Shown here: in pieces, positions 10,244 through 61,004 of the stretch
How the letters are laid out: the number at the start of each line of letters is the position of its first letter
How positions within the stretch are numbered: position 1 is the stretch's first letter
Origin: Mansonella perstans
Taxonomy: Eukaryota > Nematoda > Chromadorea > Rhabditida > Onchocercidae
Direction: 5' to 3'
Length of the DNA stretch: 64,000 bases
Assembly: GCA_037074765.1 (NCBI GenBank)
Contig: JBAMDO010000569.1
Coordinates: 124,001-188,000, forward strand
Notes under the pieces: model-generated
Databases searched by the model: none
The model's input: the letters and a program-made list of their open reading frames with translations, nothing else
Told to the model about the DNA's origin: nothing
Program-made: the position numbers and the translations under genes

Positions 10244-10548
10244 ACGTGGTCACAAATTCTACTGATACTTGCAGTTAGTTTTGTTAACAGTAATTTAGAA
10301 CCAAGTTTGAAGTTTAATTAACCAAGTTTGAGGTGTTTCCACAACTCAACCTAACTCAATTCAACACACTATATTCAACACAACATAACAATCCCTGGTG
10401 TAAACATTGAATAATATTGGCTAACAATTGATCTCACAAAAAATTCACGACAGAAATTTTTAAAGACTACTGCCCCATGTCACGGTCACATATTCTACTG
10501 ATACTTGGCAGTTAGTTTTGTTTGCAGTAAATTTAGAACAAAGATTAC
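10244..10548. repeat. Duplicated segment, about 65 bp x 2
   Basis: Copy 1 (about 10244-10307) and copy 2 (about 10482-10548) share TATTCTACTGATACTT or its one-base variant, followed by GCAGTTAGTTTTGTT, CAGTAA and ATTTAGAAC. They are direct copies about 240 bp apart with small indels. Neither is coding. Confidence 0.8.
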
Positions 10549-39123: not shown

Positions 39124-42100
39124 TTAGGCAGTACTATTAGAAAGGCTATTATCCTTGCTTCGTCCATTGGTATCCATTTTAAACGGAATGGGAGTTACGA
39201 CGGCTTCACCAAAAACTCCAGTATCCTCATGATTAATCACCGATTTTCCAGTATTTATTTCTGATACTTGAATGAGCATATCTAACATTCCACGTAACTA
39301 AAATAAGCATATGCACGTATTAGTATAAGATATAATATATAACTACTTCATGCAAATCATCAAAGTAGCTTCAGAAGTTGAATATCAAACTAAGTGTTTA
39401 CCTCAGCTAATTTATTGCGAACTTCAATTTCTCGTTGTACTGCGCGATGAAGTTTAGAAAACATTTTGGCAACTTTTCGTTCAATATTCTCATTCCCATA
39501 AATATCTGAAAAGAGTATGTAAATCACAAATTATTATGCGATTAACACTGACAATATATACTTCATTAAAGTATCTCAAATTTATTCAGTCAAAATAAAA
39601 CAGAGCAGTATGAACAGCTTTAATAAAATAAAAAAACCGCTAACCACACATAATAGTCATTGTCTTGAGTAATATATGCAGATATTCGGGCCGGAAGAAA
39701 TTCTGCATCAAAAAGGCAAGTATTGGAAGAATGGTATTGGATTTACGCCCTGATAACGCCACTGTTAATGCTCCACGTTTATAAATCTGAAAAAAAAAAA
39801 AAACAGAATGTAAACAAATTAATAAATCTTGATTATCAGATTACAATTAATCCTAGTACCTTAATGAGCTTAAGATTAACCACACATGATCCTGGAATTT
39901 TAATAATTGAGATTAATTCGTCAGTCACCTGTATTTGGAGGGACTTCGCTGTAAATTATAAGAATTTGGTGAAACAGAAATGAGCAATGACAAAACAGCA
40001 AAAGGTGACCTGCATTAATGCTCCGACAATGATATCAGGACGTGACTTATAATATTTTTCACGAAAGAGAACATCAATCGTTTTCCAGTGCTTAAATCGT
40101 CGCAACAACAAATCAACTTTACCCAGTTTCGCCTAAAATTAAACATAGATTAGCGCATCTTTCATATACAAACAGAAGAAGCAAATAAACATAAAAAAAA
40201 TAAATATAATCAAGTTTTTCTTTCTTATCGTTATGAAAACTGGAACAGAGATAAAAAGAAGAAAAAAAAACCTGTGGGACACGTGGAGCAGAAAATTCAG
40301 CCTTTTCTACAGTTCCACCTCGAAGAAGTTGGTATACGATAGGCGTGTTTGAAGGGATTCTAAAATGTTGTAGCGAAATAACTCTGCGGATGAAGTGCAG
40401 AACTTCAGATTAACTGATAAAGTATATGTGACATCACACGTACAATTTGTAAATAAAAATTCCAAAATTTTGTAGAAAATACTTTTTATGGAATTCAAGT
40501 CCTGCATTTTCAGCTCGCGCAGCTTCTAAAGACTCTTCTAATTTTCCCGGTTCACTTCGCATGGAAATTTGCAATAAATTACCCATACCTACAGCAATAA
40601 ATTTGTCATTTGATGAAATCGACAATGTGAGTACCTGAAATAATAACAAAATTAAATACAACAAAACAAGAATGTTAAGCGGGAAACAGCAGTATCTTAC
40701 AGCATAAATAAAACATTTTAAAAAAAGACAAAACTAATGAGTTATTTTGGATTGAATATAACTGCACATCAAACATTCTTCACAAAGTCACAAATCACAA
40801 AGTATTTCGTAGAAGACATACCTGAGCAGGTAAACTGAACGAATGTAATAGTTTATAGTCACCACTGTCGAGACTGAAAACATTCACCCTTTTATCGAGA
40901 CCGCCAGAAAGAAGACGAGTACCTTTCGACGCCAGGCAAAGTGAAGTAACCTGGAAATTTTTTTAAATGATGCAAAGCAACGTCAGGCAGAATGAAACAT
41001 GAAGATAGAATAAAACATAAAGTAGAAAGAATGAAGATAGAATAAAACATTAAGTAGAATAAAAGTAGAATGAAACATAAAATATTTAAAAAGAAGAACA
41101 TATCCATTATGCCAAGATTCTTTTTGAAAAACAGAAACTGTTTGTTTCTGGAATGTTCAGAAGTAATTCAATTTAATCCAAATATAATACATCACTAACC
41201 GTTTTATGATGATGATGAAGAGTATAATGTAAAATACCACCGGATGCAATATTCCAAATTTTAATAAGTTGTCCACCGGCCGTAACAACGAATGCATCAC
41301 CGGGAAGAAGTAGAATTTCTTCAATTGGTGAACCATGATCCACAGACATTAGAGCTTCGTTTCCTTCTGCTTCAGCGTTCCAAACCTTCGCTGTATGATC
41401 GTACGAACCTAAGAAATAGAAGTTCCCGATAGGTAATAAACTTCATGAACTCTTTTTCTAAGTGTAACAATGTGTAAAGCGTAAAGCGACCAAATTTAAA
41501 TAGAAAATTATCAATCTACCTGCAGAACTGAACAAAATGTCATAGCAGCTAAACTTGTCTCGTTCTTCGGGATTCTAATTATGACAAACTACAAGTTGCA
41601 AAAAAAAAGATTGAAAAAAAAGCAATGACAGAAATCACTACCACTAACGAAGAGATGATCAGAAAGGATGGAAGCATCACTGCATCGAATATGATCCTTA
41701 TGAACAGCACTGAATACTTTCAACGGAGTAGACTTTGTCTCGGTAATATCCCATAGCTTGATACAACCTTCATCACCCATTGTTATAAGTGTTCGCCCGG
41801 ATCTTGTGAAAACTACCTTAAAGTAAAATGCAATATGCGAAAGCAAATTAAAGAATGATTAATAGTGTGAAACAGAAGTAATATAACCATGTTATAAGCG
41901 ACTACAAATCACAGAAGATCACAAATGAACTTGATAGTATTTGTTTACATAAATAACCAAAAATCAAATTGTCAACGGACCGTATGAACTGCACTTTCAT
42001 GAGCTTTAAAAATCCTTAATGGAGCTTTCTTTTCGCCAGAAGTGACTGTCTTTTTCTGTACATTAAACAAACGAACTTTGCCTTCTTCGTCCCCAACAGC

Positions 42101-43614: not shown

Positions 43615-46600
43615 TCAGCAGGAGCGTAACAACGCCAAGGCTTTTTCTTCATCATCTAATAATTTTCTCTTTCGTTTTCGTAACGATTTCATTTCAACAT
43701 TTTCATTATCATCGCCACCAACTTCTTTCTAAAGAAAACTAATGAATTTTCACGAATGCCAGCGTTTTACTGCATTAAAACAAAAATTAAAAAAAGCTGA
43801 ATCCCTCAATTTATGTTCATTTCAACGGAAATAAATCAGTGAATTCTGTGAAAAGGTATTTCATAATTTCTATTAATGTACTAATTTAACATTAAACTTG
43901 GAGAAATAACCAATAACATACATTATAGTAATCCGTGGAATTATCTTCAACCTCATTCCATTCCTCATCATACTTTTTTGGTCTGTCAGGATCAGGCAAC
44001 CACGACAAATCTGGTTCACCATCTAAACCACTCGTTTCAGCTCCCAAATCCAATACAGCTCCACCCTCCTTGCTTTCTATTTTCTTCATCCTGTCTTTTT
44101 GTTTCTCCTTCCTTTTCTGAATTACTATCAATATCAAACACATGTTTAACAAAAATTTAACGAAAAGAAAGAAATGTGTAATAAAATTAAGGAACTGGTT
44201 TTCCAGCGAATAAAAATTTCTCATCTGAGAGATGAAGCAGGAAAATGGAAGGCAGACAAAACCAATATCTGATAAACTAATGAATTTCAGAATTTTAGTA
44301 AGAAAATGAAGTAACGACCTTTTTCCACATCTTTTGTTTCTCTTTATATGTTATTTTATCAATCTGATCGATCTCTATCATTTGACGTTTTGCCTCATCT
44401 ACATTAAGGCCGACCGATTCGCCATCATTTGAAATGTTGGCAGATAACACTTTATTTTCCTTCAAGAGATTATAGATGAAAAACAGTTCAATAAAACTCG
44501 AAACTTAATCAATGCTTGTCAAATCCAAAAATTAATGCTTCAATTATAGAAATATAGTACGCATGAACTAAAATATACTTTCGCTTGTAACTTAGTAAAC
44601 ATAGGCAACAAAAAATTTTTTTAATAAGCTGCTATTAGAGTTAAGAAAACCATACCACAATTTCCATTCCGTCGTCTCCGAATACCTTTTTCACACTCAG
44701 TTTCACTCCTTTTTTCAAAATTTTCCTGGCTAATGACTGACGTGTTAAAATTTTTTTCGGTTCCCTTCTTGGTTCCTCCAGGATTTCGGTAATCTAAATA
44801 TATATCTCGGAGACATAGTTAGATGAATGACACACTCGACTGACAGTAAACTGGACCTGAGTAGTATTTTCGGTAATTTATATTTCATAAAAGAAAAATA
44901 TTGCGAGTAATGATAAACTTTAGGAGCAAAAACTGCATTTAAAATGTTATACAACCCACTTCGTTTGGAAATATATTGAACACGTTTTTCCGAGTTATTT
45001 TCAGAAAATCATCATTATCTTCATCCAAACCATCACCATTTGCGTTTAGAGTAAAACCACTCTGATTTTTCCTAGCTTCATTATTTTTGCTTGTACCTAA
45101 GCCTAGATCGATTTCTTCATCCTCCACAGTACCATCTTCATCATTATCAGTTTCCTCAGTTTTCTGAAATATAAGTCAGATAAATAACACGACAAATCTA
45201 ATAGCATGATGTGCATAGAGAAAAAAAAATTACTATCTGAGCCTCTTTTTTCCCTCCTTTCGCTGCTGAAATCATCATTTCCATTAATTCGTCAGCATTT
45301 TTCTCCCCTTCTTGCTTTGGATTTGTAATATTTTGATGTAAGTGCTGGTGTTTGTTTGCAATTCGATTCAAAAATCGAACTCGCGGTGTCACAACAAGTC
45401 CGTAGGATCTATAAAAGAGCAGAAAAACTTTTGACGAACAAAAAAAAGAAAACTACAACATAGCCAGCAATTTAATAATAATATCAAATGGTTCAAGTAT
45501 TTTACACATCTTCCTCATAAATGAAGCTTCCAGAATTTTATTTAAAAATACAAGCTAGAGCAACCTTGAGCCAGTTGATCTCGGCGAAAAAAATCCTCAA
45601 ATTTAAAAATGAGAAACAAATATTATCAAAACACATGAATTTCTGAAATCATGAAAAACAATCAATTGTCAGTACTTGGCCAATGCTGGCAGGTCAACTG
45701 AATCCAAATTGAAAATATCTTTGTTCCGCATTAAATAAATTGCTCGAATGTAAGCCACGAAACTCTGAAATAATTTTGTCCACAAAACTTTGAAAATCGA
45801 AAATATTTTTTCCAGAAATTTCTTTTTCTGAATATGGAAAATAGTAAAGCATTCGCCAAATTCTAAATAAACTAACCCTCTGAGCAAATTCTTTCATTCC
45901 CGGATACTGTGTAATTACTGACTGCAAACGTCTGCTGACATCCATTATTTGCTTTTGATTGATACTAAAATAAACAGTCTAAAGTTTCTAATTTTTATAT
46001 GCTAACAGTCTGTTTTGCAGCAACGAAAAAAATTCCAAATAAATTCAGCAAAAATTTCGATCATGGTAGTTACACCAAGACGTCACCTAATTTTTTTCAA
46101 ATATTTGCTTAATTCATGAAAATTAATCTATCAATTGTAAAATGGTGAAAAGTAAACCTAATTTTAGTGATTAAAATTTTCTTTTCCTGCAATCTTGTAA
46201 GCATGGCTTGTTCTTGCGTCGGTGTGAGAACTAGGATTGCCTCACCCTTGGCATCCATCCGTGCAGTACGTCCTACTCTAAATACAGTCAATTAATTAAA
46301 CTGTAAAAAATTTAAATTCAATGATGGACAAAACAAAGGATATGCCGCATTTCGGCATGCAAAAAATTCCAGGTGACAAGATAGAAGTGTTGATTCGAAA
46401 ATAAAAAGTCCACTATTCTTTCTGCTAATCAACATGGTATAAAAAAAAGAATTAAAAATTAACCTATGAATATAATCATCAACATCTACAGGACAGTCCA
46501 ATTGCAATACAATATCAACACGAGCAAAGTCCAGTCCTCGACTAGCAACATCTGTAGCAATCATTGCAGCTCCATCAGTTTTGCTGTTAAATTTTTTGAA

Positions 46601-48518
46601 AACTTCTAGCCGCTTCATTTGATTCATCGTACCCCACAATCCCATCAGTGAAAGGCCTGGTCGCAGATGGCAAAACGCTTCGGTTAAAAATCGCGCCTAA
46701 CAAAATTATTCCATAACCACTTTGCAAATAATGGTCCATAAAATTAATTGAATAAAGGATTAAAAATGACCTGCTTGCAGCATGAAACAAATATTAATGT
46801 TTTCTTCTTTCGATGATTCAGTAAAAAGGACCATAGCACATTGATTTTATCCTCATCATTGCATACAAAATAACTCTGCAAAATCACAATTTTCGATAAA
46901 TGTTCATTTGAACAACACTCTTAGCCCTTGTGATAGCCCTGAATAATCAACATTCAGTCCTCATATTTATTTATAAGTGAACCAACAATTACTGAGGAAA
47001 ACAAATTTATGGAGAATGGAAAAGAAGAAGTTGGTAAGATAAACCACTGAAAATCTAGCAGCCTAATTCTTTGGAAGTAAGTAAATAATTTAGAAGGATC
47101 AAATAAAACTACACCTGCAGTAATGAAGTTGGTGTAACTTGAGGAGCATTTTCATGAGCAGATATATATAGTGGATCTCTCAGCGCCAAACGTACTAAAT
47201 CTTTCACATTTTTGGTTTGCGTGGCCGAGAAAAGCAACGTTTGGCGGTTTTCTGGCAGGTTATCCACAATTGCGTTCATCTGTAACAAATAAAAAAAGAA
47301 ATGGATTACAGAACTATTCGAAAATTATGCATAGTTTGTCTTCACTGCAAGCTGATCATGACTCAAAGCAAAAGAAGCAGCTGAAACGTTCTATTTGATC
47401 AAATTCTCTGCCGAAAACACAACACTTAAAGTGCCACATATGTTTGAAAATTATTGGGTATGTCCATTTTCCTGAGTGACATCTTACCTGCCTTGAAAAA
47501 CCAAGGTCTAAAATCCTATCAGCTTCATCAATGACAAGAATTTGCAGTTGTTCACATGAAAATGTACTATTCTCGTCCATGTGTTGCAACAATCTGCCAG
47601 GCGTACACACCACAATGTTCACCGAACCTATTCGTTTACTTTCGAATTCTACATCAGTTCCTGAAAAAATTCTATTTTTGAAAATTGTGACTGAAACTTG
47701 GTACAGATGATGTCGAAAGATGACGAGCCCAACGCTGAAGATGTAACTACAGCAGTCTTCCATAGCACATACATGACCATATCAGTTCAAAAAGCAAAAA
47801 TGAAAGCAAATGAATACTACAGTTAACTATACAAAACAAACCTCCAATAAGCACAGCAACAGAAAACTGATGTCGCGCTCCAATTCTGTTCAAAACTTGA
47901 AATGTCTGGAAAGCGAGCTCCCTAGTAGGACTGATAATCAAAGCACCTAATCCGTCCACCGTCCGCGACCACCTCTGTCTCCACAAACATTCCAAAACCT
48001 GTAAAATCAGAGATGCAAAACGAATCAAAAATGCAAAAGTCACCTTGAACACATCTTTAAAAAAAAAATGGTCTGCGAAAAAAAATACAAAAAACTATAA
48101 ATATTTAAATAAAATTCTATGAATAAAAATAACCGGAATAAGGAAGGCAAGCGTTTTTCCACTGCCTGTTTTAGCAGCACCAACCACATCAGCACCGGTC
48201 AATGAATACTGCAGTGATTCACGCTGGATATCAGTGGGATTTATGAAATTACTTTCTTTGAGACCTTGTTGTGTCGCTGCCGATAATGGCATTTGCGAGA
48301 ATGAAGTAAGTGTTCTGCTATCTTCCTGTAATTCAAATCTTCTAGCTGTAAAACTCGCAAAAGTTTAGATAACTGTAAATTAACTTAAAGCTAAAATATA
48401 CTTTTGCGAAATCGGCATATCGTGCGGTTACAGATTCAATAGTATCCTTTACAATTTTTCCATTTTTCCTTTGTCCAGAAATACTTTTTTTTTGAAATCT
48501 GCTTCGTGACTGACGCAT
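43615..48518 (-). CDS. DDX10: DEAD-box RNA helicase DDX10 (Dbp4)
   Basis: DDX10/Dbp4 is a nucleolar ATP-dependent RNA helicase needed to release U14 and other snoRNAs during early 18S processing. Sixteen exons (first 48402-48518, last 43615-43728) encode 801 residues. All helicase motifs are visible: Q motif ([11 protein letters not shown]), [10 protein letters not shown], Ia SPTRELA, Ib [55 protein letters not shown]. After the core come DUF4217-like helices ([18 protein letters not shown]), then a long charged tail ending [20 protein letters not shown], characteristic of DDX10. ATG 48518 sits seven bases after TTTTTAG, a good trans-splice acceptor. The gene lies between coupling factor 6 and UTP15 on the same strand. 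Confidence 0.95.
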
Positions 48519-49110: not shown

Positions 49111-49877
49111 CTACTTGACAGATCGAAGATGCAATTGCGCTTCCTCTTCCATTTTTTGCTTCTTCCGTCGCATTTCTGTATATTGTTGAACTTCTTTTTC
49201 CAACTCTTTATTTAAATCAGTAACTGTTTTCCCTTCGAGCATCACTGCTACAGCACTTTCAACAGAAGGAGTTTCCATTTGCTTCACTGGCAACTCGTTC
49301 ACTACTTCCTTATTTTCCAAATGATACTTGCTAGCTAATCGCTGTAATTGATCCTCCAATGACCGAAGCGTCTGCAATAAATTATAATATATAATAAGCA
49401 TTTGTCAATATAAATATCAGTCAAATATATCGTTGTAAGATATTACGTAGCGTGACACAAGTGCATTCTAGTTTATATTATTGGATATACAGTATTATTA
49501 CAGTTCATTTATTTCAAAAAGCAGATTTAAAAATAAGAAATAAAAAAAGAGCAGAGGAAAAATAATAATAACTTAATCTTACAAATTTCTCAAAACAACT
49601 ACCGTTTCCTCATTCAGTGACAAATAAAAGATAAACAGCAATCAAAGTGCTCTTTAAAGCGGCTTAGATTAAATATCTATAGCTGATAACAGGGCTAAAA
49701 TGATAATTTTACCTCAGGTGTAGCATCCACAAGTCCATCTTTTTTATCAGCCATCTTAGACTGATATTCCTTGATTTTTTCCAGAAACAAATTCTTGACC
49801 AAATTATCAGACTTGACCTTTTGTGTCCCTGTACTCACCATTCGCCATGCTACGGGTAATTTTAATCGCAAGAGCAT
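49111..49877 (-). CDS. atp-4: Mitochondrial ATP synthase coupling factor 6
   Basis: Coupling factor 6 (F6) is a peripheral-stalk subunit of the mitochondrial F1Fo ATP synthase. Two exons (49713-49877, 49111-49371, phase 0) encode 141 residues. The first about 20 residues (MLLRLKLPVAWRMVSTGTQ) are a mitochondrial presequence. The family core is VKNLFLEKIKEYQSK followed by GLVDATPE and then TLRSLEDQLQRLASKY, matching LFVDKIREY...PVDA.PE....L...L.KL. The C-terminus has an extra charged helix (NKELEKEVQQYTEMRRKKQK) making it longer than the mammalian mature protein. The ATG at 49877 is three bases after TTGACAG, an excellent trans-splice acceptor. A GTG lies just upstream in frame but is not needed. 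Confidence 0.88.
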
Positions 49878-52800
49878 CACCTGTCAACAATCACCATTAG
49901 GAACATTTCAGATTGTACAACATAATAAATCAATACGAATCAATACCACATTAGATAATTAAACCTCAATAATGCTAGCTAGTAAGAAAAATTTATACGA
50001 AGTAAATATTTAATAGAAAATAAACATTTAAGAAAAATAAAAAATAAAAAAATAAACATTTAAGAAAGTAAACAAACAAACAAAAATGAAAACCCAAAAA
50101 TTCGTGAATACTGGGAGAATTTTATCTATCTATAAAATTTGTGAAATATTAAAAATCTCAGAACACCCCCGCACCACTTTAATCTTTAAATTTCTGCTAC
50201 CTTTTCCCAAAACATCTACGACTCGACTTCTTCGTATTGGATCATTTCTACAGCTGAGACGCGATGAAAATTATCATTCCAGCAAGTGGTCCTTTTTACA
50301 GTATCCGACAATTCCTGAGTATTTGGAATACTATCTTCTCATTTCAACATAAACAACTTTAATTTTTGAATTATTGAAATCGAATCAATTTTTTGATTAT
50401 AAATTAAAAAATAAAAACAAAAAATACGCAATGTTGAGGAGAAATTAATTAAAATTTAAAAGCATTAATGTATTAATAAAAAATAAATAAAATAAAAAAT
50501 GCAATTTTATTTATTCACTTATTTTTTTTATTTATTCATTTATTAATACAATTTTATTTATACTAAAAAATTTTTGTCTTTCCAACTAATAAATAATTCA
50601 TTTTGTCGGAATAAATAATTCTGTTTATTTTTTATACAATTTTATTTATTCATTTATTTTATTTTTGATAAATTAATGCAAATATTTGTTATGTTTGCAA
50701 TCTTCTCTCTGTCTCTTTCTCTTTCTCTCTTTTTGCCTCTCATTTTGTATTATTTTTTCTTTCATTTTTCTTATCAATAAAATTTTTGGCTCTTTTAATT
50801 AAGTACAAAAGAATTACAAATTGAAATCTTGCTTTAACCACTTTTTCACAAATCCTTCCTTTACAACAAATCACTTTGAACTGTAATATCGAAATTTCTA
50901 TACATTGCATAGTATCCTATTAGAAAGTTTTAATGCTTGCAAATTGCAGTTCTAATTGCATTTTGTAATTGCAGTTTTAAATTTTAGTATAAATGTTTGA
51001 GTCCAAGCAAGTATTTATCAAATGGTTGCTTTGTTTACTTAAGTAAGATGGTAATGTTAAGTCCCGAAGCACGGGAAGCACACCAAATATTCATTCACAT
51101 TCCTTTTCTCTTCTCTCTTCCTTTTTTTCTCTCATTCCAAATTAATTTCTCTTCATTTCATTTTACAAAAAAAGAAAAAAGTCCGAAATTTATTTTATTT
51201 ACAGATGAATCGCATTTCGTTAATTCGATGGAAATTTTTGAAATTTTTTTTATGAAGTGATTCAAGTGTTTGTGAAAATTCAAGATGTGTAAACAGTTGA
51301 CAGACTGCCAATAAACAGTTGACAGATTAGCAATACTTTTCATGCAAATTGGAAAATTATCACATTATCACATTGGAATAAATTTAGCATTTAGATAAAT
51401 TTTAATCCTAATTTATAATTGTCAAGAACACATCTCTTTCTCTCTCTCTCATGTAGTGCTAATTGCTTACAATCGAAATTTGAGTTTGATGAGTAAGCAA
51501 ATGAGCGTAAACATTTCATCTTGTAGCGAGCAGCATATTCCAGTTCACAAATCGATCATTTATAGTAGTTTCATCTAATTTAAACATATTTTAAAATGTT
51601 TTTCCTTTTTTTATTCTAATTTTTTTTATTCAAATCGTTATCTTTTTTCATTGAGAAAACATTTTGAATTATTGATTTCTCTTTTTGATGTAATAAAGTA
51701 CCTTTTTGGCAATTGATGCTAAATTTGCAATTCAATTTCATAAAAGCCATTGAATGGAAATTTGTGGAAAAATGAAAATTCATTTCTTTTATAAAGAATG
51801 AAGCTAACTTAGTGATAAGTGAAAAATATGACAATCAAATTTTGATTGGAAGTCATTACACTCATATTTCTGTAACGGAATAATTCAAAAATTATTTGTT
51901 AGAATTATTCTCTATCAATCCATCTGCTATTATGTTATGGGTTGTTCTAATTATTTTTCTATGTTAGTAAAATGAATGAAAGAGCTCTTTGAAAATATAT
52001 TTGATCAGCTTTATCATCTAAAAAACTAACCTTAATAGGCCTATTCTAGGCTAGTAAATATATTGTTCAAGACAGTTTCATTTTTTTTTTCACTTTAAGG
52101 AAGAAGTATCATAATCTGTCTTTAATTCTTCAAATACAAGAATCTTTCATCGTATGATCACATAAACATTGAAGATATTGTGTGACAGTTTGTCGTGTGT
52201 TAGTACTTCATCAGATTGTTAAACAAATTAAGGTATACGATAGCATTAAGATTATCATACAATATGACTCATAAGTGGAGAAAGTGATGGAACATTAGTG
52301 CTTATTCATCACTGATAGCACAATTTCTATCAATGCTTCTTCATGTTTGCATTGCAATGGTCGAATATTTTTCAACTTTTAACTTTATCATGAATTTATT
52401 TTAACTAATTAATTTTCTTATTTTTTCAAGATTGTCCTTTTTTCCAAAGTTCAATCAACCCAAATCTATTTGAAATCAATAATTTGTATCGATTTTTCTC
52501 TTTCCTAATTTTTTTTTTTGCTCTCTTCATCCAATATTGCCTAAATATTATTAGCTATAGGTGAATATTCTCCACTATCATATGATGATAATTATATTAA
52601 TTCATTATACTAAAGTAGAAGAATGATTTTCTAAGGATATTACTTTGTAAAATAGATTAATTTATAATCGATTACTCTTCACTCTTCCAGTTCTGCTTGA
52701 TATGCATTGAACAAATAAGAATCTAAAAATTTCATATTTCATGAAATTAAAATAGAACAACTGAAGAAGATAATTTTATTTTCACTCATAGAATAGAAAA

Positions 52801-56413: not shown

Positions 56414-59400
56414 TCACTGGAAACAGTGAATATGTTTCCGAGACAGCGACTCAAGGATGTCGATTCCCTCCGTGGTATCATTCAAACACGGAACATAAAC
56501 GTATTCTTCGCCACCGTGTTTCCTAAAAATTTTCATTTGAACTGAATGAAAATTTTATATTTTACAAATCTAATTACAAGGAATATTTTATTTTAAAATT
56601 TCAATCATAAACTAAAATACCAGAAAGAATCGGCAAGTTGAATTCCCAATTCTTCCAGTGTTTCTATACAATCACTGAAGAAACCGGGTGAAACTACCAT
56701 GATTCGTTTTACTCCATGCCTCAAAGTTCAAAAAACAGAAATTAATTAAAATTTCAATTATTTAGTATCATAAACAGCGCCGTTGTTTGAGCAAGCTTGA
56801 AAGATCTAAACCGCACTTGTAAAATCAACAAGCTAGCCGAGATATAATTTCTTTTAAAAATCTGGCAAAAAGGAAAACGCATTAGCATCAATCATTTCAT
56901 CCTTCTTTAAATTGAGCTTCAATATGTCCAAGCTTGTTAAATCGCGGTGGTAAATTCTTTCTCCTTCATTTTCTTTTAAAATAAATAACTTAATAAAATC
57001 TTCCTATTTTGTAACATACCTTTAACTATCTTTAACTTGTAACTATCTTTAGAAGATAGCTCAAAATTAAAGCTAACATTGATCCTAAAAATTTACTGTG
57101 CCAGTTCTATGACAGTATCCTCAGTGTATGGCTTCAACCATTCTGCGGGTCCAAATCGAGACTGAAATGTTGTTGTTAAATCACAGTTTGAAGTTTGCCA
57201 TCTTTCGCTGAAATTACCGTAGAATTAAATTAAAATCAAAAAGAACTATGTATTCCAAATAATTGGAATATCGTTCAATATTGTGCTAAGAATTACTACT
57301 CAGTTCATCACACATCAAATACAAACCGTAAGAGTGTTGTTGTATACTTGCACTGGAATCCATATGGATCACCATTGGTTTGATAAGACAATGGTATCCC
57401 ATGATATGAGATAATAATTACTTGCGGTGGTGCTCGGAATTTTCCTAGAGCGGAATTTATACATTTAAGGATTGCTTTAATGTATAATTCGTTGTCATAA
57501 AATGGTGGTACGACAGACAAAGTCATTTGACGACGCTGTTTCATCAAACAACGGCAAGTCTAAAATTTTTTAAAAAAAGGTAGTAATATGCCGAAAGTTC
57601 TGAGATGAATAAAAAGAGTCAGTAAAAGAAAATACTTAACGTAATGATTTCGAAACAAAAAAAACTTAGTAAATAACACAAAGATTTTTTTTTTGAAGTA
57701 CCTTTGTTGCAGTAATTATGAGTGTTAAAATTCTACTCAATTTTTTTTTGTTTTTGTTTTTGAAGAATTTAATTGCACATGTTACAAAGAATCAGTAGAT
57801 AATGCAAATTTACTTCATCGAAAATGGAAGCGGTTGTAACAGCGGAGAATTGTGGAAATAAGGGAAATATAACAAGCTTGTCACATTCTAAAATTTTCAA
57901 GTATTTTTCATAGAAATTTCAATAAAAATTCATTACACATGAATTGCCAACAAAATTTCTTTTTGGATTTCATGATTTCATTAAAATCAATTTAAATTTT
58001 TATTGAAATCAATTTGAAAGTGAGGAGAACTCAAAAAACAAAGTGTTTTTTTTTTTTTTTTTTGCTTCGTAAACAAACTACTGAACATGCTTATTAAAAA
58101 AAATGAGGAAATCATGCCTTTCTTTTCAAATTCATGTATTCGGGAAGCGATTGAAGGTTCACCATATCGAAATGCCCAATCAACCGTAATCTAAACTCAT
58201 TTTCATTGTTAGATTGAAAAATCATTCCCAGTTTTTGAAAAATTTCATTTTTTCAAAATTATTTTCAATCAACCGTAATCTAAACATTGAAAAATTATTT
58301 TCACTGTTATACTAAATAAAAGAGTTTTGGAACATAATCCTAAGGCATATATTTTAGCATATGATATCTATAGGGTCATTATTTTATTTTTTCTAATTAA
58401 AATTAATATAATTGTAATAATCATTGCTATAATTTCTTCTCAGAAACAAAAAGTATTATAATATTACTGATTGATCACGTAAACGATCAGCCAATTTAGT
58501 TGCTTGATTACGAGTTGTAGTACGTAATGGACCCTCATTTTGTTCCTCATTCCAAATCGATCTAAATATTGCTAAACATTTCCTCTGTCATCCATTTTTT
58601 AATCCTATACATTATAAATTCGCACTACATCAAAGTATTTGGACAAAATTTGAAGCATTTTATTACATTTAGCTTAAATTGCTTTTTCCTATCTCTAAAA
58701 TAAATTACATTACTTGTAGCATTTTCCTAAGCTGAATGGTCTTTGTGTCAGAATAAACAAATGCATGATTGGTAGCCATAGAATTCGAGGTAACTCGATA
58801 ACTCGTTGATCACTGAGAAATTCCCGCAGAAAGCTCCTTACTGACCAGTAATCATAACCAGACGGTGTACCGAGATTTACTATAAGTATACCTGTTTTCT
58901 TCTTTAATTCCTGAAATAAGCATCTGGAACACAAGTGCAGCAATTAATTGAAAAGATTCAGTGGTTTTTTCCATTCTTGTAGATTTATTTACAATATAAT
59001 CTAAATGATTGAAGAATATTGTAAAAGTACTGCGACGGGATTTCTATCGGTTGATACATCTTTTTTTTTTTTTTTGAAATAAATATCGATTGCTAAATTA
59101 TTTGAAATAAACTGTGAAAGAGTGGAATGATGAAGATGATAATAAACTGATAAAGAGTTCATCACGATGATAAATGCTCATAAAATTTTGTTGCTCGGTT
59201 AGAGAATTCCTCAACCAAAATTTAAAAATTTTCAACGCATTTTTTAGAATAGAAGTTCCTAGGCCATTCACTGCAATATATTATCTGTTTGAGGCATAAT
59301 AATAGAATATAAATGGCCTAATTCGAAGCAAAATCTCACAATAAGAACAATCCTTTGCAATTAAGCCTTTATTTTGATCTGTTCAATTAGCAATCTACCA

Positions 59401-59801
59401 AAGAGATTTTACTTCGGAGAATATCAGGGAATAATTCAGGTCATAACTATGGTGGTGGACTTCGATCACCTCCATCTACCTTATTATATTACAGGATATG
59501 GGATATCCCAAATCTTACTACGGAATTATTTGGCTACAAATAAACTAAAAAAAAAAAAAAAAACTTTTTTGAAATCTTTCAGCATAAATTCCATTTTTTA
59601 TCATAAAGTATTGCTATCACAAAATAGGACTGACTTCTTTTACAACAGATTACAGTAATCTTAGAAAAAGATAATTAATGGACGAACCGGTATCGGTTTC
59701 TTATCAGTGATAACATTCGAAATTTCACTACCAACCCATGAAGTTAATCGTCGAATTACAAACCGTGCTTCATTACTTTGAGTAGCTTTCAGCATCACCA
59801 T
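56414..59801 (-). CDS. hemH: Ferrochelatase of bacterial type (laterally acquired)
   Basis: Ferrochelatase inserts iron into protoporphyrin IX, the last step of heme synthesis. Nine exons (59688-59801, 58714-58910, 58468-58561, 58118-58190, 57814-57887, 57327-57559, 57097-57207, 56621-56719, 56414-56522) encode 367 residues. Exon 1 (MVMLKATQSNEARFVIRRL) is an Arg-rich leader fitting mitochondrial import. Core motifs: GILIVNLGTPSGYDYWSVR, VDWAFRYGEPSIASRIHEF, KLVIFPLFPQFSAVTTASIF, IIISYHGIPLSY with the catalytic His, GDPYGFQCKYT, FQSRFGPAEWLKPYT, MVVSPGFFSDCIETLEELG and YVPCLNDTTEGIDIL. These are alphaproteobacterial in style, without the Fe-S tail of animal enzymes. Published work reports such a transferred gene in Brugia and other nematodes that otherwise lack the pathway. 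One intron (58117) appears to use a GC donor. A CTCCAG acceptor precedes the ATG. Confidence 0.95.
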
Positions 59802-61004
59802 AGATTTACGTACTGGAGACAAGAAATAAATTATCACTGATAAGAAATCATTTTTTTCTTAAAAAAAAAAATCCTGAACAAATATGTGTTCAAATAAAAG
59901 CAAATTTTAATGTACAAATTATGTTTCTAAATAATCTTTGAAATGACTCTGATAACCTGATAATCTGATAAGTAACTGATACATGACTGATTGCAAAAAA
60001 TCACTGATCAATTCATTACTAAAATTCGTCTGCCGCAGGTCGAATTTTATGAAACTTATTCGCGATATGTGTCTGTCATACTTTCGACCGATCGATGCTT
60101 TTTTTTAAAACTATCCTGGAGAATAAGACTAGGGGAGAGTTTTCGTTTGTGTCAAAGTTCATGAAGAGTAGGAGTTTTCATGTGTCAAAGTTCATGGGGA
60201 ATAGGAGTTTTCATGTGTCAAAGTTCATGGAGAGTAGAAGTTTTCATGTGTCAAAGTTCATGGAGAATAGGAGTTTTCATGTGTCAAAGTTCATGGAGAA
60301 TAGGAGTTTTCATGTGTCAAAGTTCATGGAGAATAGGAGTTTTCATGTGTCAAAGTTCATGGAGAGTAGGAGTTTTGAGGTGTCAAAAAAATAAAAGGAC
60401 GATATTTAGAATTCCTAAAATTAAACCATCGTCCATTTTGTATTTTTGAATTAGGAATATCTTATTCTGTTGATTATCTACTCATAAATTTGATGTTTAA
60501 TGTAGTATTGATTGATATGGTATATATTTTTGTTCGCAGCTAACGAAAGTTATTTTGTAAAAAAATTGAAATTAGTCGATTTATGGAAGGTTTATAAAAC
60601 AAGCAAGAACAAAGGAAAAGATTTAGGCTATATGTCGCTTCCTGGAAAAGAAATGCAACAAATCAATTGGCAATTTACTTTGTTACTTAAATATCTTAAA
60701 TTCATGATTTACTACTTAAATTTGTTGCTTAAATATCTTAAACTAGGTTATTTATTCATTTGCTTAATCGTTCAGTTTTATTTACCGTTGCTTATATTTA
60801 AAAGATCCGAACAAGTAATTATTTGTAAAATCAAATAAATTTTAGAGTGTAACATTTGGAGAGACAAGAAGAGTGATCCTATTGTTCAATTAATTTGAAA
60901 AGGATTTTTCCAAAAAAAAAAAAAAAAAAAAAAAAACATCTCTCTTTTTTATTGGAGAAAAAATAAAGCTACTTTTGCTTTCTTTCTCGTTTCGGGTATC
61001 TAAA
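59802..61004. other. Divergent intergenic region with minisatellite
   Basis: Ferrochelatase (minus) and the unnamed coiled-coil gene (plus) are transcribed away from here. The region contains CTGATA-rich sequence (about 59945-59995), the 33-bp minisatellite (60140-60388) and an A run at about 60912-60936. An open frame at 60512-60838 lacks an ATG at its 5' end and contains its own short internal duplication; I do not support it as a gene. Confidence 0.6.
60140..60388. repeat. 33-bp minisatellite, 7 copies
   Basis: The unit CAAAGTTCATGGAGAATAGG + AGTTTTCATGTGT repeats with exact 33-base period; TCAAAGTTCATG starts at 60152, 60185, 60218, 60251, 60284, 60317 and 60350. Copies differ only at a few positions (GAAGAGTAGG, GGGGAATAGG, GGAGAGTAGA, GGAGAATAGG). 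Because 33 is divisible by three, reading frames stay open across it (for example SKFMENRSFHV repeated), but the unit conservation is at DNA level and no flanking coding exon is seen. Confidence 0.95.

Follow-up and report, generated by a model that had tools for sequence, protein, structure and literature searches.

The ferrochelatase gene of Mansonella perstans is located on the minus strand at positions 59801-56414 of the analysed window, a stretch of 64,000 nucleotides (C528:124001-188000 of the nematode assembly). The predicted model has nine exons and eight introns, and the joined exons encode 367 amino acids in a frame without inner stop codons; this reproduces exactly, in exon borders and strand, an earlier description made from the letters alone (hereafter, the sequence-only reading). 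Exon 1 (59688..59801) carries the start codon and a leader of 38 amino acids. It is followed by intron 1 (58911..59687) and by exon 2 (58714..58910), where the ferrochelatase core begins. Exon 3 (58468..58561) encodes most of a 16-residue segment common to the close bacterial relatives. Then come exon 4 (58118..58190), exon 5 (57814..57887), exon 6 (57327..57559), exon 7 (57097..57207), exon 8 (56621..56719) and exon 9 with the stop codon (56414..56522), all on the minus strand. By alignment, the predicted exon 6 encodes His237 and Tyr250 (human His263 and Tyr276), exon 7 encodes Trp285 (human Trp310), and exon 8 encodes Asp315 and Glu318 (human Asp340 and Glu343).

The introns, from the first to the eighth, have lengths 777, 152, 277, 230, 254, 119, 377 and 98 bases. 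Seven of them have GT-AG borders, and intron 4, after the GC donor at the end of exon 4, has GC-AG borders (AAAG/GCATGA, the slash marking the splice site). The joint of exons 4 and 5 across this intron leaves no gap in the protein alignment with bacterial relatives. All splice junctions are predictions, with exons 2-9, but not the junction of exon 1, backed by homology to bacterial proteins. A 33-bp minisatellite (60148-60387, 7.3 copies, 94% match) is situated approximately 350 bases upstream of the gene.

Exon 2 by itself has no in-frame ATG between the upstream stop codon and the core, so that a coding exon further upstream is probably required. The donor of exon 1 at 59688 has the highest score among 33 candidate first exons of at least 30 bases between 62500 and 58990, the donor weights being approximate and set by ourselves; among the GT sites of the minus strand it ranks at the 95.5th percentile. 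The pyrimidine-rich, acceptor-like tract TTTCTTGTCTCCAG (59813..59826, minus strand) ends at 59813, leaving 11 bases to the ATG. The acceptor noted in the sequence-only reading is thus present, and it is a candidate site for trans-splicing to the SL1 leader. However, the donor of intron 1, CCG/GTTCGTCC, is unlike the usual GTAAG, shorter joins are in frame as well (e.g. from a donor at 59764 to the acceptor preceding 58923), and residues 1-38 are not covered by homology, the best score against bacterial sequences being 23. Hence the true start codon could belong to a different upstream exon, or the protein could be leaderless and cytosolic. Given the rank of the donor, the good acceptor just before the ATG and the lack of a start codon in exon 2, we consider such an error in the model of exon 1 not very likely.

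The genome (75,729,464 bases in 539 contigs) contains 266 exact copies of the nematode SL1 22-mer, and no copies of the reversed control. The SL1 counts and the eight predicted introns, of the spliceosomal kind, assign the gene to the nuclear genome of a nematode. Among the places listed, the 22-mers occur in tandem on contigs C178, C215, C248, C4 and C80, in steps of approximately 60 bases or multiples thereof. The usual SL RNA gene has approximately 100 bases and is longer than this step. Within the window, an SL1-like sequence with two mismatches was found at 10311-10332 on the plus strand (the chance expectation is 0.01 at no more than three mismatches).

The 38-residue leader has three arginines and three lysines against three acidic residues, and its first 24 residues include four basic and one acidic. 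The sequence-only reading had called it Arg-rich, which is an overstatement at this composition. The best 18-residue hydrophobic moment is 0.516, a value reached by 641 of 5000 shuffled leaders (13%). The mitochondrial targeting proposed in the same reading may be considered plausible, but by composition and by hydrophobic moment it is weak.

It was also suggested there that exon 1 could have been captured. The search of the genome at E up to 10 found no second copy of exon 1, which matched only itself; this search used the whole protein as a query and scored only the best candidates, so that diverged copies could be missed. The score of 23, the best against the N-termini of 61 bacterial relatives, does not exceed chance: shuffled leaders average 27 and reach 23 in 285 of 300 cases. 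Thus the suggestion is unsupported, although both results are compatible with capture. Further, the bacterial relatives frequently leave space for their own N-terminal extensions, so that the leader may not be an additional exon at all. An extended version, in which exon 1 came from the host and was captured once the bacterial gene had been transferred, intron 1 is the joint to trans-splicing and mitochondrial import, and the loss of a cysteine from the CxC pair (considered below) is a second trace of domestication, seems quite unlikely to us.

The protein is a ferrochelatase. It matches the Pfam family PF00762 far beyond chance and over the full length of the domain (342.2 bits with a cut-off of 27, E 3.3e-102; residues 43-362 against positions 1-316 of the 317 in the profile). 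The three motifs described as bacterial in style, PGFFSDCIETLEE, PCLND and FQSRFGPAEW, are all there. The alignment demonstrates conservation of the active-site residues R143, Y144, H237, Y250, W285, D315 and E318. The human counterparts of the first two and the last two are R164, Y165, D340 and E343. The sole difference among the mapped active-site positions is Cys316 in place of human His341, a position that is cysteine in all 61 close bacterial rows too. What H263, Y276 and W310 do in the human enzyme is described in a passage of PMC3596385.

The cysteines of the protein (102, 161, 186, 188, 217, 254, 270, 316, 344, 365) form no triple of the type CX(1,11)CX(1,11)C, the [2Fe-2S] motif as given in a section of PMC8529089. 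Nor does the protein end in a cysteine-rich C-terminal extension, whereas the human enzyme has a C-terminal [Fe-S] extension (PMC2703803, in part). The claim that the animal Fe-S tail is missing therefore holds for both the extension and the triple. Cys161, Cys254, Cys316 and Cys344 are common to 59-61 of the 61 close bacterial rows. The position of a bacterial CxC pair is occupied by Phe252-Gln-Cys254, the first cysteine of the pair being kept in 52 of the 61 rows. For Ruegeria pomeroyi, modelling put an internal CxC pair at the dimer interface (passage in PMC8529089); in our reading of the alignment, this would be the same pair.

The expected reaction of the core is the insertion of ferrous iron into protoporphyrin IX, which completes heme synthesis. 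No match in the genome was obtained for the families of ALAD, CPOX and UROD, which account for three of the seven reactions leading up to ferrochelatase. The same type of search recovers four exons of the ferrochelatase gene, but the sensitivity of this exon-wise search is limited, and hence the missing matches are no proof of absence. They fit published descriptions of a worm auxotrophic for heme that has only the last step (in parts of PMC2703803 and PMC3596385). The porphyrin would come from the vertebrate host, the diet or a symbiont. A metazoan-type ferrochelatase-like gene was sought in the same genome with human ferrochelatase as the query, and nothing significant emerged, with the best E of 0.539 at C527:13802-13903. 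The acquired gene was termed a second copy in a passage of PMC4413787, and ferrochelatase-like homologues in other nematodes are mentioned in a part of PMC5633385.

If the worm does not have the rest of the pathway, the enzyme might work mainly in the reverse direction, or in handling of iron or porphyrin, rather than in making heme. The failure to find ALAD, CPOX and UROD is in line with this, and the reverse reaction was raised as a possibility in a passage of PMC3596385. However, the same source describes a Strongyloides relative, SvFeCH of S. venezuelensis, as active in the forward assay and able to rescue an E. coli strain deficient in ferrochelatase, and the active-site residues are kept in M. 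perstans. This alternative to synthesis of heme is thus unlikely.

For comparison with bacteria, 111 loci were reduced to 99 distinct proteins, of which 94 were used for mean identities and segment counts (L090 and L102-L105 were omitted as long or odd). Mean identity to the M. perstans protein is 46.2% for 61 close rows, 39.9% for 15 intermediate rows and 30.1% for 18 distant rows; the close set (L013-L085) consists of the best matches to this protein, and its higher identity is in part a matter of choice. The best identity to bacterial HemH is about 50-51%, against 32.6% over 285 columns for the human enzyme. Matches were found in 222 of 289 genomes drawn from the class of a Roseibacterium genome (best 49%) and in 276 of 299 genomes drawn from its phylum (best 51%).

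Since the close rows were selected by similarity, the length of the segment YKSIWNEEQNEGPLRT, which was no criterion in the selection, was taken as an additional trait. The segment has 16 residues in M. perstans, as it does in each of the 61 close rows. Among the 15 intermediate rows, 13 have 14 residues and the remaining two have 15 and 16; all 18 distant rows, human and yeast have 12. In 17 of the 18 distant rows (L106-L122 and L124, from the class draw) there are shared cysteine columns past the C-terminus of the M. perstans protein. Given these cysteine columns and the 12-residue segment as in human and yeast, the class apparently contains two ferrochelatase types separated by a deep split.

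The phylogenetic evidence is divided. A tree with 63 rows contained 61 of the 99 bacterial rows and human as the sole eukaryote; the 38 rows dropped from it, L053 and other long rows among them, were picked after an earlier tree had been viewed. In this tree the M. perstans protein belongs to no starred small group. The approximately unbiased (AU) test did not reject its pairing with human (p = 0.0735), or a group of M. perstans, human and eight distant bacteria (p = 0.399). Yeast was added after this result, and a tree with 54 rows was analysed, consisting of 51 of the 99 bacterial rows (every second close row, 12 intermediate and 8 distant ones), human and yeast, besides M. perstans. Here M. 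perstans nests within the close group (forks 98/98 and 98/93), human and yeast are placed beside the distant rows, and a clade of M. perstans, human and yeast is rejected (p = 1.35e-5). The M. perstans row forms a long branch and in two trees pairs with L053, another long row; this pairing may be false.

A ferrochelatase tree had been proposed in the sequence-only reading as a check of bacterial origin. The tree separates the M. perstans protein from human and yeast together, whereas pairing with human as the sole eukaryote is not rejected, and the latter is the one point in favour of a diverged metazoan ferrochelatase inherited vertically. The 16-residue segment against 12, the best identity of about 50% to bacteria against 33% to human, and the missing C-terminal cysteine tail all oppose vertical descent. 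We regard it as rejected by the test with human and yeast, though the human-only test did not reject it, and its remaining probability as very small. Bacterial origin of this alphaproteobacterial-like enzyme by lateral transfer is thus likely and supported by identity, segment length and the human-yeast AU test, but not by the human-only one.

The donor is another matter. A grouping of M. perstans with eight rows of a clade containing named Rhodobacterales was not rejected (AU test, p = 0.408). As this grouping is neither shown nor rejected, we name no donor order. A source related to Rhizobiales was reported for the nematode gene in a part of PMC5024691. Passages of PMC3596385 and PMC4413787 treat the nematode gene as distinct from that of Wolbachia. 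On the other hand, a review passage in PMC9133952 states that the Brugia enzyme had been suggested to derive from Wolbachia.

Contamination with bacterial DNA, or symbiont DNA inserted and no longer functional, would explain the bacterial type of the core, but it can practically be dismissed in view of the eight introns, the frame intact through nine exons, and the location of the gene in a nematode assembly with exons of an intron-split DEAD-box helicase 8-10 kb downstream. The intervals 46295-48094 and 49698-49883, both on the minus strand and downstream of the ferrochelatase gene, hold the helicase exons and a likely exon of ATP synthase coupling factor 6 (27.6 bits with a cut-off of 27.9); the Pfam scores for the helicase are 45.3 bits for DEAD and 50.5 bits for Helicase_C, and another DEAD piece is just below the cut-off. 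An exon at 41592-41858 on the minus strand, resembling a WD40 beta-propeller, has six weak Pfam matches, all below the cut-off.

Taken together, an ancient lateral transfer, of the sort already reported from filarial nematodes, would have given rise to a nematode nuclear gene for an alphaproteobacterial-like ferrochelatase. Its transcript would receive SL1 by trans-splicing immediately ahead of the start codon, exon 1 would supply this codon and an N-terminal leader that might direct the protein to mitochondria, and the core would carry out the last step of heme synthesis. We consider this explanation as a whole highly probable.

Related systems show both likenesses and differences. BmFeCH of Brugia malayi and its filarial orthologues are, like the M. 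perstans gene, ferrochelatases of the alphaproteobacterial type in nematode nuclear genomes. BmFeCH reportedly has a nine-exon gene and is said to be mitochondrially targeted, essential and active (Wu et al. 2013, PNAS 110:7748). Our limited searches of the literature found no confirmation of its nine-exon structure or mitochondrial targeting. Nematode ferrochelatases of this kind occur in filariae and Strongyloides, according to a passage of PMC3596385. SvFeCH is likewise bacteria-like and has no C-terminal extension (373 amino acids against 367), but its gene has a single intron of 49 bp, unlike the eight introns of 98-777 bases in M. perstans. The distribution of the gene and this large number of introns point to a filarial host.

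The alphaproteobacterial HemH proteins from seven named loci (L013-L019; Roseibacterium, Sulfitobacter, Paracoccus and others, order Rhodobacterales) have 41-47% identity to the M. perstans protein, and the sequence SIWNEEQNE(S/G)PL is common to the latter, L013 and L014. In contrast to the M. perstans gene, genes of this type are intronless, their proteins have other N-termini, and most have the first cysteine of the CxC pair in place of Phe252. The mitochondrial ferrochelatases of human and yeast belong to the same Pfam family and have common catalytic residues with the M. perstans protein, from which they differ in segment length and, for human, in the low identity given above.

Lateral transfer of ferrochelatase in filarial nematodes is already published, and a bacteria-like nematode ferrochelatase was described in PMC3596385. 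For a single genome, the M. perstans locus is in line with the published account and adds predicted exon borders to it. Filarial ferrochelatase is a proposed drug target, and cases in which an animal retains a functional bacterial gene are documented, and rare.
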